NCBI RefSeq assembly: GCF_016918035.1
Contig: NZ_JAERWK010000016.1
Span: forward strand, 186,001 to 250,000
Source of the DNA: Nakamurella leprariae
GTDB lineage: Bacteria; Actinomycetota; Actinomycetes; Mycobacteriales; Nakamurellaceae
DNA length: 64,000 bases
Direction: 5' to 3'
Below, piece by piece: positions 18,951 through 55,983 of this stretch. Each line of letters begins with the position of its first letter. The first letter of the stretch is position 1. Made by a program: the position numbers and the translations under genes. The notes beneath the pieces were generated by a model. It was not told the DNA's origin. It made no database searches and saw only the letters and a program-made list of their open reading frames with translations.

Positions 18951-19856
18951 ATGATCCAGTCCCGGACCTTCGCGGACCCGGCCGCCGTCGCGGCGGCGCT
19001 CGAGCGGGTGGGGTACCTGGCCGACGCCGGTGTGGCCACCGCCGCCCACCTCGCGCTGCGCACCGGGCGGCCACTGTTCCTCGAGGGTGATCCCGGGGTG
19101 GGCAAGACCGCGCTGGCCCAGGCACTGGCGGACATCACCGACGCCCGGTTGGTCCGGTTGCAGTGCTACGAGGGCATCGACGCCAGCCAGGCCCTCTACG
19201 ACTGGGACTTCCCCCGACAGATCCTGCACCTGCGGGCCATGGCGGACGGGCCGGACCGACCCGAGGGGTACGACCCGGCCCGGGCCGAGGCCTCGCTGTA
19301 CGACCGGCGGTTCCTGCTGGACCGCCCGATCCTGCAGGCCCTGGAGGGCACGCCGGCCGTCCTGCTGATCGACGAGATCGACCGCGCTGACGACGAGTTC
19401 GAGGCGTTCCTGCTGGAGGTGCTGGCCGACAACGCGGTGACCATCCCCGAACTCGGCACCATCCGCGCGGTGACCCCGCCGATCGTCGTCCTCACCTCCA
19501 ACCGCACGCGGGAGGTGCACGACGCCCTCAAACGCCGCTGCTTCTACCTGTGGGTTGCCCATCCGGACTTCGAGCGGGAGGTCCAGATCGTCCGGGGCCA
19601 CCTGGCCGACGTCCCCGACCGGCTCGCCCGCGACGTCGCCGGACTGATGGGGACCCTGCGCACCATGGACCTGCTCAAGCCGCCCGGGGTGGCCGAGTCG
19701 ATCGACTGGACCCGGGCCCTTCAGGTGCTGGGCGCCACCCGGCTGGACCGGACGAACGCGACGGCGACGCTGGGGGCGGCGATCAAGTACCGCGAGGACC
19801 AGGTCCGGGTCGAGCGTGAGGTGCTGCCGCAACTGGACGGGGCGCTGGTCCTGTGA
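18951..19856 (+). CDS. MoxR-family AAA+ ATPase (CoxD-like)
   Basis: 301 residues. Walker A is GDPGVGKTALAQ, Walker B is VLLIDEIDRAD, and the sensor asparagine lies in VLTSNRTREVHDALKRRC. In CO dehydrogenase gene clusters the equivalent CoxD is an AAA+ chaperone for assembly of the active-site metal and sulfur. The ATG at 18951 is chosen by the AAGGGAGA at 18932-18939; a nearer ATG at 18942 reads into a stop after three codons. Its stop codon lies in the first copy of a 14-bp repeat leading to coxE. Confidence 0.9.
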   Translation: MIQSRTFADPAAVAAALERVGYLADAGVATAAHLALRTGRPLFLEGDPGVGKTALAQALADITDARLVRLQCYEGIDASQALYDWDFPRQILHLRAMADGPDRPEGYDPARAEASLYDRRFLLDRPILQALEGTPAVLLIDEIDRADDEFEAFLLEVLADNAVTIPELGTIRAVTPPIVVLTSNRTREVHDALKRRCFYLWVAHPDFEREVQIVRGHLADVPDRLARDVAGLMGTLRTMDLLKPPGVAESIDWTRALQVLGATRLDRTNATATLGAAIKYREDQVRVEREVLPQLDGALVL

Positions 19857-19888
19857 ACGTGATCCTGTGAACGTGGTCCGGTGAACGC
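19847..19888 (+). repeat. three 14-bp repeats forming a ladder of GTGA stop/start overlaps
   Basis: Units start at 19847, 19861 and 19875 with consensus GRTCCTGTGAACGT. Each holds GTGA. The moxR stop overlaps a GTG at 19853 that opens a five-codon frame (M-N-V-I-L); its stop overlaps the GTG at 19867, opening another five-codon frame (M-N-V-V-R); that stop overlaps the GTG at 19881, the start of coxE. Ribosomes finishing moxR could pass through both tiny frames to reach coxE. Confidence 0.85.
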
Positions 19889-21044
19889 GGCCGACGGAGC
19901 CGTCATCGACCGGCGGGACGACGGGCCGGAGGAGCAGCCGGACGTCGTCGAGACGATGACCGGCTTCGCCTGGGCGTTGCGCGCGGCCGGGGTCAACGCC
20001 GGGCGCGAGCGGTTGACCACCTGTCTGACCGCCCTGGAGCACGTCGACCCGGTCGACCCGGAGGCCGTCTACTGGACCTGCCGGGTCTCGTTCTGCTCGG
20101 AACCCGACGACCAGGCCCGGTTCGATGCCGTGTTCGGTCGGTGGTTCCTCGAGGCCGACCCGGAGGACCCCGAGCCGGCGTCCGCCGGCGATGCCCCGAT
20201 CGACCGACTGGCCGCGCGGCGGCCGCCCGGCGCGCCCGGCGATCGCCAGGAGGTGGTCGAGGAGGATCCGTCGTCGGCCACCGAGGCGGCCGACGTGGAG
20301 GTGCTCCGCCATCGCGACGTCGCGCTGCTGGCGGACGCCGAGCGTGATGAGATCAACCGGATGATCGCGCTGCTCGCCCCGCGGGTGGGCCGACGACGCA
20401 CCCTGCGGCGCGCGCGGGGCGGCCGGGAGCGGCTCGACGTGGGCCGGACCGTGCGGGCCATGTTGGGCACCGGCGGTGAACCGGTCCGGCTGGTCCGCGA
20501 CCACCGGCGGGACAAGCCGCGCCGGCTGGTGCTACTCATCGACGTCAGCGGGTCGATGGCGCCGTACGCCGACGTGGTGCTGCGGTTCGCGCACGCCGCG
20601 GCCCGGGTCTCCCCGGCGACCGAGGTCTTCACCCTCGGCACCCACCTGACCCGGGTCACCCGCCAGCTCCGGCTCCGAGATCCGGACCACGCGCTCAGCG
20701 CGGCCGGCGCGGCCATCCCCGACTGGAGCGGCGGCACCCGGCTCGGTGAGACGCTGCGGGCGTTCCTGGACCGGTGGGGGCAGCGCGGGCTCGCCCGGCG
20801 GGCCGTGGTCGTGATCGCCTCCGACGGCTGGGAACGCGGCGACGCAGCGCTGCTGGGCGAGCAGATGGCCCGGCTGGCCCGGCTGGCGCACCGGGTGGTG
20901 TGGATCAATCCGCACCGCGGCAAGGCCGGGTTCGCACCGGCCACCGCGGGCATGGTGGCGGCGTTGCCGTCCATCGACGATCTCGTGGCGGGACACAGTG
21001 TCGCCGCGCTGACCCATGTTGCTGAGGTGATCGCCCGTGCGTGA
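19881..21044 (+). CDS. CoxE-like von Willebrand factor A domain protein
   Basis: 387 residues. The C-terminal half is a vWA domain with the MIDAS motif LVLLIDVSGSMAPYAD followed by SGGTRLGETLRAFL and VVVIASDGWERGD. CoxE proteins partner the MoxR-type CoxD ATPase during maturation of the molybdenum enzyme. The N-terminal half is acidic and arginine-rich and not recognised. The GTG at 19881 lies in the third copy of the 14-bp repeat; no separate Shine-Dalgarno is seen, so translation probably depends on coupling from moxR. It overlaps the next gene by 8 bp. Confidence 0.88.
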   Translation: MNAADGAVIDRRDDGPEEQPDVVETMTGFAWALRAAGVNAGRERLTTCLTALEHVDPVDPEAVYWTCRVSFCSEPDDQARFDAVFGRWFLEADPEDPEPASAGDAPIDRLAARRPPGAPGDRQEVVEEDPSSATEAADVEVLRHRDVALLADAERDEINRMIALLAPRVGRRRTLRRARGGRERLDVGRTVRAMLGTGGEPVRLVRDHRRDKPRRLVLLIDVSGSMAPYADVVLRFAHAAARVSPATEVFTLGTHLTRVTRQLRLRDPDHALSAAGAAIPDWSGGTRLGETLRAFLDRWGQRGLARRAVVVIASDGWERGDAALLGEQMARLARLAHRVVWINPHRGKAGFAPATAGMVAALPSIDDLVAGHSVAALTHVAEVIARA

Positions 21045-22170
21045 CGTCATCGCCGAACTCGAGACCTGGTGGCGAGCCGGGGTTCCGGTCGCCGTGGGAT
21101 CGGTGGTCGGCACCTGGAGCTCCTCGCCCCGACAACCGGGCGCGGCCATGGTCGTCGGCCCCGACGACAGCGTGGTCGGCAGCGTCTCGGGCGGCTGCGT
21201 GGAGGGCGCGGTCTTCGAGCTCGCCGTCGCGGCCCGGGACGACGGCGCGCCGGTGCTGCAGCGCTACGGCGTCAGCGACGACGACGCCTTCGCCGTCGGC
21301 CTGACCTGCGGCGGGATCATCGACATCTTCGTCGAGCGGATCGACCAGCAGTCCTTCCCCGAGCTGGGCGACATCGCCCAGGACATCCGCGAGGGACGCC
21401 CGGTCGCCGTCGCCACCCTCATCAGTGACGTCGAGGGCGGGACCCGCACCGGGCGACGGCTGGTGCTGCGCGACGGCGGCACCTCCGGGTCGCTCGGCAG
21501 CGAGCGGCTGGACGACGCCGTCCGTGACGACCTCGTCGGCATGCTCGAGCAGGGCCGCACCGGAATCGTCCACTACGGCCCGGACGGAGAACGCCGCGGA
21601 GACGACATCGCGGTCTTCGTCGCGGCCTACGCGCCGCGCCCGCGGATGATCGTGTTCGGAGCGATCGACTTCGCCGCCGCCGTGGCCCGCATCGGGTCCT
21701 TCCTCGGCTACCACGTGACGGTGTGCGATGCGCGGCCGACGTTCACCACGGCGAAGCGGTTCCCGGAGGCGGACCAGGTGGTGGTCCAGTGGCCGCACCG
21801 CTACCTGCAGGCCGAGCACGAGGCCGGCCGGGTCGACGCGCGCACGGTCGTCTGCGTGCTGACCCACGACCCCAAGTTCGACGTGCCGTTGCTCGAACTG
21901 GCCCTGCGCCTGCCGCTCGGCTACCTCGGGGCGATGGGCTCGCGCCGGACCAACGACGACCGGCTGGACCGGCTCCGCGAACTCGGACTGACCGAGGAGG
22001 AGCTGCAGCGCCTGCACGCGCCGATCGGGCTGGACGTCGGTGCCCGCACCCCGGAGGAGACCGCGGTGTCGGTCGCCGCCGAGATCACCCAGGTCCGCTG
22101 GGGTGGCACCGGAGCCCAGCTCCGGGCCGTCTCCGGGCCGATCCACCACCACGCCGAGGCGACGGTCTGA
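21037..22170 (+). CDS. XdhC/CoxF family molybdenum hydroxylase maturation protein
   Basis: 377 residues. The N-terminal XdhC/CoxI domain shows VGTWSSSPRQPGAAM and SVSGGCVEGAV; the C-terminal Rossmann domain shows VFGAIDFAAAVARIGSFLG and LGAMGSRRTNDDR. XdhC-type proteins bind molybdenum cofactor, promote its sulfuration and insert it into the large subunit. The GTG at 21037 lies inside the end of coxE (8-bp overlap). The last residues (HHHAEATV) are histidine-rich. Confidence 0.9.
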   Translation: MRDVIAELETWWRAGVPVAVGSVVGTWSSSPRQPGAAMVVGPDDSVVGSVSGGCVEGAVFELAVAARDDGAPVLQRYGVSDDDAFAVGLTCGGIIDIFVERIDQQSFPELGDIAQDIREGRPVAVATLISDVEGGTRTGRRLVLRDGGTSGSLGSERLDDAVRDDLVGMLEQGRTGIVHYGPDGERRGDDIAVFVAAYAPRPRMIVFGAIDFAAAVARIGSFLGYHVTVCDARPTFTTAKRFPEADQVVVQWPHRYLQAEHEAGRVDARTVVCVLTHDPKFDVPLLELALRLPLGYLGAMGSRRTNDDRLDRLRELGLTEEELQRLHAPIGLDVGARTPEETAVSVAAEITQVRWGGTGAQLRAVSGPIHHHAEATV

Positions 22171-55168: not shown

Positions 55169-55209
55169 GGGGTCAGTGCGTGGGGATCAGTGAGTGGGGA
55201 TCAGTGAGT
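55169..55209. repeat. 14-bp tandem repeat across the stop codon of the LOG gene
   Basis: GGGGATCAGTGAGT is present twice exactly (55182-55195, 55196-55209), with a degenerate copy before it (55169-55181). The copy at 55196 contains the stop codon of the LOG-family gene (complement of TCA at 55201-55203); the others lie in its 3' untranslated region, so each copy repeats the stop triplet. Confidence 0.85.
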
Positions 55210-55983
55210 GGCCTCCCAGGCCGCGTAGGCGTCGTGCACCACCCGGATCACGTCGTCCACGTCGTCGGTCAGGTGGACGAGCTTGAGGTCGGGGTCGGAG
55301 ATGTTGCCGGACTCGGCCACCCGCTGGTGGATCCAGTCGACCAGACCGCCCCAGTACTCCGACCCGAACAGCACGACCGGGAACTTGGTCACCTTCTTGG
55401 TCTGGACCAGGGTGAGCGCCTCGAACAGCTCGTCCAGAGTGCCGAACCCGCCGGGCAGGCAGACGAACGCCTGCGAGTACTTCACGAACATGGTCTTGCG
55501 GGTGAAGAAGTACCGGAAGTTGATGCCCAGGTCGACGTACTGGTTGAGGCCCTGCTCGAACGGCAGCTCGATGCCCAGCCCGACGGACAACCCACCGGCC
55601 TGCTTGGCACCTTTGTTGGCCGCCTCCATCACGCCCGGACCGCCGCCGGTGATGACCGCGAACCCCTCCCGGGCGAGGGCACTGCCGATCTGCACGGCGG
55701 CCTCGTAGTACGGGTTGTCCGGCTTGGTCCGGGCGCTGCCGAAGACCGCCACCGACCGCGGCAGGCTGGCCAGGGCCCCGAAGCCCTCGACGAACTCCGC
55801 CTGGATGCGGAACACTCGCCAGGGGTCGGTGTGCACCCAGTCACTCGGGCCACGGGAATCGAGCAGGCGCTGGTCGGTGGTGGTGCTCTGCAGGCGTTGC
55901 TCGCCGCGCAGCACCACCGGGCCGCGGAAGCGCTCCGCGGGCCCGGCGCCGTTGCGCTGGGCGTCGTCGTCGAATTCGGTCAC
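55201..55983 (-). CDS. LOG family protein (Rossmann fold nucleotide-binding)
   Basis: 260 residues. The lysine-decarboxylase-like/LOG motifs are VITGGGPGVMEAANKGA and LPGGFGTLDELFEALTLVQT (PGGxGTxxE). LOG enzymes release cytokinin bases from nucleoside monophosphates; in bacteria they are general nucleotide phosphoribohydrolases. It is the TIGR00730 type common beside dapE in actinobacteria. The GTG at 55983 follows a TACTGT box by 6 nt, with no Shine-Dalgarno. Confidence 0.87.
   Translation of the reverse strand: MTEFDDDAQRNGAGPAERFRGPVVLRGEQRLQSTTTDQRLLDSRGPSDWVHTDPWRVFRIQAEFVEGFGALASLPRSVAVFGSARTKPDNPYYEAAVQIGSALAREGFAVITGGGPGVMEAANKGAKQAGGLSVGLGIELPFEQGLNQYVDLGINFRYFFTRKTMFVKYSQAFVCLPGGFGTLDELFEALTLVQTKKVTKFPVVLFGSEYWGGLVDWIHQRVAESGNISDPDLKLVHLTDDVDDVIRVVHDAYAAWEATH

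Follow-up and report, generated by a model that had tools for sequence, protein, structure and literature searches.

A tandem array of GTGA stop/start junctions between moxR and coxE in Nakamurella leprariae and its putative role as a leaky translational relay

In Nakamurella leprariae, the genes moxR and coxE do not themselves overlap, since the moxR stop codon and the GTG start codon of coxE are 24 nt apart (19857-19880). A short tandem repeat covers this interval and extends into both genes. The locus is part of a window of 64,000 nucleotides (assembly GCF_016918035.1, contig NZ_JAERWK010000016.1, positions 186,001 to 250,000), and all positions in the window are counted from its first letter. 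On balance, it is considered probable that a GTGA overlap was tandemly duplicated to three 14-bp copies, that serial reinitiation keeps coxE coupled to moxR, and that the duplication was tolerated for this reason.

The upstream gene moxR encodes a coxD-like AAA+ ATPase (18951..19856, plus strand; Pfam AAA_5, E 5.6e-13; confirmed by an ORF check) and ends with the TGA at 19854-19856. In the best register, the array consists of three full 14-bp copies on the plus strand (19845-19886), which are identical at 12 of 14 positions in pairwise comparison. Copy 1 (CTGGTCCTGTGAAC, 19845..19858) takes in eight bases 5' of the moxR GTGA and contains the moxR stop and GTG 19853, copy 2 (GTGATCCTGTGAAC, 19859..19872) contains GTGA 19867 together with an extra GTGA at 19859, and copy 3 (GTGGTCCGGTGAAC, 19873..19886) contains GTGA 19881, the coxE start. 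GTG 19853 opens a five-codon mini-cistron with the predicted peptide MNVIL (19853..19870, plus strand; stop TGA 19868-19870), and GTG 19867 opens a second one, also of five codons, with the predicted peptide MNVVR (19867..19884, plus strand; stop TGA 19882-19884). A 4-nt stop/start overlap, the arrangement by which pairs coupled by termination-reinitiation (TeRe) are recognized, is therefore present at GTGA 19853, 19867 and 19881, stepwise via the mini-ORFs. The three GTG positions and both peptides, with the moxR stop and the coxE start, had been given in an earlier note on this DNA and are all correct by the ORF check. The same note described three copies of the unit with a GTGA in each; the three copies stand, but the tract contains four GTGA and not three. 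The extra GTG 19859 is in frame with mini-ORF 1 and GTG 19873 is in frame with mini-ORF 2, so that the frames of both also stop in an overlap with the next GTG of the chain. Although moxR and coxE are in the same frame, a MoxR-CoxE readthrough fusion was rejected because of another in-frame TGA at 19860. RNA folding around the tract is ordinary (z 0.85, with equal or better folding in 161 of 200 shuffles).

An ordinary 4-nt GTGA overlap would once have coupled coxE to moxR by termination-reinitiation, and tandem duplication of this junction would then have resulted in the three 14-bp copies, with each new stop again overlapping a GTG because the period is 2 mod 3. On finishing moxR, a ribosome would reinitiate at GTG 19853, again at GTG 19867 after five codons, and after another five codons at GTG 19881, the start of coxE. 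Reinitiation would be expected at each step, with losses that multiply, so that per moxR passage coxE would probably be translated modestly less and would stay coupled, by a leaky relay, at a reduced yield. The array would have been tolerated because coupling survived, and would be one among many short tandem repeats across stops in this genome. Very short ORFs lose peptidyl-tRNA through drop-off, which counts against such a relay.

The length of the unit is decisive for the chain. When a GTGA unit of length n is duplicated, the next TGA is found n+1 bases after the GTG and is in frame only if n = 2 mod 3. The chain stays valid because 14 = 2 mod 3, and a frame computation on paper gives a chain that reaches coxE at 1, 2, 3, 4 or 5 copies. 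The earlier proposal that the chain keeps itself valid upon duplication agrees with this computation, but its wording "in spite of" the 14-bp length does not, as a period of 2 mod 3 is required. By the same reasoning, a period of 0 mod 3 would lead to an N-terminal extension and one of 1 mod 3 to a broken chain.

Downstream of coxE, an XdhC/CoxI-family gene is present (21037..22170, plus strand; Pfam XdhC_C, E 2.5e-43, and XdhC_CoxI, E 1e-33), which overlaps the coxE stop by 8 nt (21037-21044, GTGCGTGA). The sequence GAGGTGATC 5' of this overlap has strong anti-Shine-Dalgarno (anti-SD) pairing of -16.3 kcal/mol, in contrast to coxE. In NCBIfam, MoxR matches MadB_ATPase at a score under the family cut-off. 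The divergent molybdenum hydroxylase large subunit reaches 618.5 bits against its best match, glyceraldehyde dehydrogenase alpha (cut-off 790), and 530.4 bits against CO dehydrogenase (cut-off 991.15). This enzyme is not identifiable as a CO dehydrogenase, because its scores for all 13 of the 13 listed families are under their cut-offs.

The moxR-coxE junction was compared in 160 loci, including that of N. leprariae. With 20 loci left aside, either duplicates or loci in which a gene was absent, inverted or too distant, 140 distinct junctions were read, in which only RTGA overlaps and mini-ORFs of up to 15 codons were counted. A direct RTGA overlap is found at 40 junctions and another arrangement at 96. 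In this comparison, of the kind that the earlier note had proposed, a single overlap of the same type is present in the relative L058, and an RTGA chain via mini-ORFs is found in 4 of the 140, namely the window, L095, L098 and L132, and the mini-ORF of L132 has two codons and may be chance. L058 is the best CoxE match (MoxR 77% and CoxE 69% by local BLAST); it has one GTGA overlap, and its coxE opens with GTGAAC, the first two codons being the same as in the window. L060 and L062 have an ATGA overlap, and in L008 and L063 the stop is followed, at a distance of three bases, by a GTG. The ancestral junction was probably one GTGA overlap, as in L058. Tandem duplication of an ordinary GTGA junction, already suggested in the earlier note, is the best origin for the array, as close relatives have a single direct junction.

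A second array at this junction is present in Actinomycetospora. In L095, from an Actinomycetospora MAG, three mini-ORFs (MSTRGERSDGE, MTAAGRSDGE and MTAGERSDGE) are followed by coxE, and in L098, from A. endophytica, one mini-ORF is present, so that the number differs between the two species. The repeat period is 29 bp (lag score 29), which is also 2 mod 3, with a first step of 32. From these sequences, it seems that the moxR-coxE junction acquired a relay twice, with unrelated units. A search with a 23-base pattern and up to three mismatches revealed that the core GCGAGCGGAGCGACGGGG is dispersed in both Actinomycetospora genomes, with 17 and 20 matches and none for the reversed control. Thirty copies were fetched, of which 26 were readable; 11 are near an upstream coding-like stop, and four of these 11 are the moxR-coxE junction itself. 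This core (L466-L495) is possibly an undescribed interspersed repeat, with some copies near gene ends. The N. leprariae unit, searched as a 25-base pattern with up to 3 mismatches, is not dispersed in its own genome, where it has three matches, two in the tract and one in an array on contig C5. Among other genomes, 6 of 396 contain a match at up to 3 mismatches, for each of which 25 bases were tabulated, and the match in G022 has two GTGA 14 bases apart.

The moxR-coxE array has a Tandem Repeats Finder score of 64 and a lag-match score of 19. In 1.6 Mb of the N. leprariae genome, 115 arrays have a lag-match score of at least 19, coding arrays counted, and 194 short tandem repeats have a score of at least 15. 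Two order-3 Markov simulations resulted in zero arrays at 19 or more, and this control rules out a chance origin. The moxR-coxE array is a true tandem repeat, yet such arrays are frequent in this genome. A simple gene caller based on codon usage gave 1320 genes in the 1.6 Mb, and a tandem repeat with a score of at least 12 was found across the stop at 30 of 1319 gene ends. For control TGAs, a spanning repeat was found at 4 of 3375 sampled intragenic sites and at 43 of 3987 other intergenic sites, the latter necessarily including some later copies from these stop arrays. The 30 stop-spanning repeats have no mod-3 preference (10, 11 and 9 periods of 0, 1 and 2 mod 3), and the eight with RTGA at the stop include two periods of 2 mod 3, five of 0 and one of 1. 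A neutral origin fits these data, because stop-spanning repeats are frequent here and 21 of the 30 have CTGA as their stop context. On a stricter list made without a stop anchor, 23 of 85 noncoding arrays overlap a stop (11.3 expected; binomial p 0.0006) and five overlap a start (12.3 expected). These 23 arrays lean to 2 mod 3 (11 versus 7 and 5), and a 14-bp period occurs six times among them and once among the 58 arrays touching neither stop nor start. Neutral duplication near stops explains most of the repeat pattern in this genome.

The pattern RTGA-N10-RTGA-N10-RTGA has 9 matches at 6 places in the N. leprariae genome, and its reversed form has 3. Five of the six places start exactly at the stop of a long ORF, and two of those five, moxR-coxE and C29:200396, have a long coding-like ORF that begins at the last GTG. 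The arrays on C5, C27 and C31 also begin at stops and have no coding-like gene at the array end; at C31, the last GTG opens only a 320-codon frame without coding bias. The C5 array (L167, C5:54838-54897) has five GTGA at 14-bp intervals, the first at the stop of a 425-aa ORF, and contains one stretch that matches the moxR-coxE unit pattern at 3 mismatches. Joining by at least one mini-ORF was observed for 20 of 670 close gene pairs; the 18 that could be shuffled compare with a null of 13.5 +- 1.8, so that the excess of single-step chains is weak. Two or more mini-ORFs join 4 pairs, versus 0.83 in shuffles (null maximum 5 of 300). A three-step chain that is not a repeat, made of mini-ORFs of 3, 4 and 8 codons with RTGA overlaps, leads into a downstream frame in the C31:99576 region. 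Elsewhere in the window, another 14-bp array of about three copies (55169-55211) is found across the stop of a minus-strand gene, where the units have CTGA in the gene direction and hence form no RTGA relay, and a 13-bp tandem array (580-617) is found across the CTGA stop of a plus-strand gene.

RTGA triplets were also searched at six spacings in the same 101 genomes of the order, that of N. leprariae included, with the reversed pattern as control. At spacings of 2 mod 3, a triplet was found in 94 genomes for 11 bp (control 29), 89 for 14 bp (37) and 82 for 17 bp (37), and at spacings of 1 mod 3 in 53 for 10 bp (31), 65 for 13 bp (28) and 65 for 16 bp (40). Each spacing of 2 mod 3 is above its neighbour (Fisher p 5e-11 for 11/10, 0.0001 for 14/13 and 0.01 for 17/16; control tallies 0.88, 0.23 and 0.77, respectively). 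The contrast between 14 and 13 bp is not robust, because the ratios of total hits to control are equal (3.99 and 4.17, with 93 and 36 control hits), and it may reflect only the greater abundance of 14-bp repeats. The 11-bp spacing may include 11-bp regulatory repeats such as PHO boxes. The contrast between 17 and 16 bp holds (2.45 versus 1.94 hits per control hit) and is the only one free of both doubts. The mod-3 bias of the genome tallies is only partly robust.

For a comparison of loci, 30 were fetched per spacing, giving 90 at 2 mod 3 and 90 at 1 mod 3. The last RTGA opens a coding-like ORF at 33 of 90 versus 17 of 90 loci (p 0.01), a difference that largely follows from the way of counting, as none of the earlier copies can open a long frame when the spacing is 2 mod 3. 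When any RTGA copy is allowed to open the ORF, no mod-3 difference is seen (33/90 versus 33/90). Among tandem loci alone, a coding-like ORF is found at 16 of 35 versus 8 of 30 (p 0.13). At a spacing of 14 or 17 bp, 15 tandem loci have a coding-like ORF from the last RTGA, and all ten that were scanned have Pfam matches: ABC-3 transporter, amidase, SpoU methylase, sigma-70 regions, 3-hydroxyisobutyrate-type dehydrogenase, RibD_C, RuvX, polysaccharide deacetylase, alpha/beta hydrolase and DUF58. Four of these ten matches begin within eight residues of the proposed start. As judged from these frames and matches, the recurrence of relay-like arrays 5' of unrelated genes does stand. Very long arrays were observed in G057, with about 36 copies of the 14-bp unit ATGACGGTCCGCGG (G057:C17:570055-570548) and 35 copies of the 17-bp unit GTGACTACGGGTTCCGA (G057:C12:63717-64298).

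The relay depends on where coxE starts. The gene encodes a coxE-like VWA protein (19881..21044, plus strand; Pfam VWA_CoxE, E 1.4e-56), with a frame of 387 codons from GTG 19881. This start is supported by codon periodicity, as the codon-position G+C of 0.88/0.40/0.96 over 19881-19955 (the first 25 codons) is coding-like, and by the stretch of the same frame 5' of GTG 19881, in which no further ATG, GTG or TTG is found back to the last stop. The anti-SD pairing 5' of GTG 19881 is -8.0 kcal/mol, a value reached by 22% of random positions and ordinary for the 4-nt-overlap starts of this genome (median -7.8, n = 194), so that it was fair to state, as had been done before, that no separate Shine-Dalgarno serves coxE. 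In addition, ribosomes could enter at the inner GTG 19859, because the anti-SD score there is -13.8. A start at the internal ATG 19956, with the upstream tract as a mere spacer, is very improbable. In BLAST alignments to relatives, the first aligned residue of the long form is commonly one of 18 to 24, and several relatives have possible starts near that point, which would suit the internal ATG, but the coding-like stretch ahead of it argues for the longer form. A downstream start with its own ribosome binding site had been named beforehand as evidence against the relay, and the anti-SD score of ATG 19956, -7.5, is no better than that of the GTG. Also, the coxE of L058 can begin with GTGAAC at the moxR stop, though L058 also has an internal ATG.

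With the start at GTG 19881, coxE could be reached via the mini-cistrons, by direct scanning or by de novo initiation, the last two being possible. In reporters, according to the accessible part of the paper, reinitiation is almost abolished by gaps of ~20 nt, the cost at +14 nt in E. coli is 40-80%, and the final 15 nt of the gene upstream are sufficient for coupling, with gene-specific exceptions: a 15-nt gap was overcome by one E. coli pair, and 10-20% was retained at 38 nt by two (PMC10666635). SD motifs aid reinitiation to varying degrees, as described in excerpts from PMC6728339. On these reporter gap data, ribosomes should cross the 24 nt between moxR and coxE only poorly in a single jump, and steps of five codons are plausible. 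The reported loss over such gaps argues against a neutral tandem repeat without a translational role, in which coxE would be started by direct scanning or de novo and the mini-frames would be hardly translated, and so do the second array at the Actinomycetospora junction and the genome tallies at 2 mod 3, chiefly 17 versus 16 bp. This neutral explanation is less probable than serial reinitiation but has a real chance of being correct, as short tandem repeats often cross stops here at any period, several GTGA arrays of this genome (C5, C27 and C31) lead nowhere, the coxE anti-SD pairing resembles that of other overlapping starts, and the fair start-codon comparison is without a mod-3 effect. 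It is improbable that the relay is a dedicated ratio control, which would lower CoxE relative to MoxR for a hexamer-to-one complex, with the copy number as a dial. The part of the source available describes a related MoxR-VWA pair as a NorQ hexamer with one NorD (PMC9976466), so that, by analogy, a VWA protein below the MoxR level would be affordable; the validity of the chain at copy numbers 1 to 5 and the three mini-ORFs versus one in Actinomycetospora would also suit a dial. On the other hand, 136 of the 140 junctions are without an RTGA mini-ORF chain, 40 of them overlapping directly, and among the remaining four the two-codon case of L132 may be chance. The wider proposal that stop/start tandem repeats with a period of 2 mod 3 are recurrent, selectively retained relays with five- to ten-codon cistrons in this actinobacterial order, in which slippage would change the copy number without a frame break and give graded control, is regarded as doubtful.

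Coupling of these genes may also bear on Oligotropha, where loss of CoxD leads to the absence of CoxE and CoxF protein while the genes are still transcribed, for which the authors proposed a helicase role of CoxD, as far as the available text of the paper goes (PMC4240915). Translational coupling would be a simpler account of the CoxD loss, but it leaves the missing CoxE of the coxF mutant unexplained. If serial reinitiation works, it explains a harmless frame-shifting duplication at an overlapping gene pair and, with five-codon cistrons, shows how short a ribosome-passing cistron can be. By a simple rule, coupling is predicted to be kept in repeats that combine RTGA with a period of 2 mod 3, which other genomes allow one to check, and natural constructs that have 0, 1, 2, 3 or more steps make reinitiation per step measurable.

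Among known arrangements, the Actinomycetospora junction (L095 and L098) is alike in that it also joins moxR to coxE, by an ATGA chain with mini-ORFs of 10-11 codons in a 29-bp unit, but that unit is unrelated and its core is dispersed in those genomes. MIRUs have unit lengths of 77 and 53 bp, which are also 2 mod 3. All junctions of the tract are GTGA overlaps, the type studied in TeRe coupling at 4-nt overlaps (ATGA/GTGA), as presented in the available portions of PMC6728339 and PMC10666635, but TeRe pairs have one overlap between two genes, and here three overlaps made by a tandem repeat are in series with five-codon cistrons between them. A two-codon mini-ORF in axe-txe similarly acts in cis on the next cistron and is sensitive to distance and frame, but in the excerpt available no stop/start chain is described and the effect is ascribed possibly to mRNA protection (PMC8708949). 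MIRUs are repeats with a short ORF at -4 nt to the following gene (PMC12548453, citing Supply 1997; partial text), an arrangement also found here; they are described in the same text as apparently mobile and inserting at start codons, whereas the 14-bp unit looks like a local duplication of a junction and, when up to 3 mismatches are allowed, is not dispersed. In the literature searched, outside of which most subscription papers fall, no description of such arrays nearer than MIRUs and the axe-txe minigene was found. Within that literature, the tract is a new form of termination-reinitiation coupling, with the MIRU as its nearest printed precedent.
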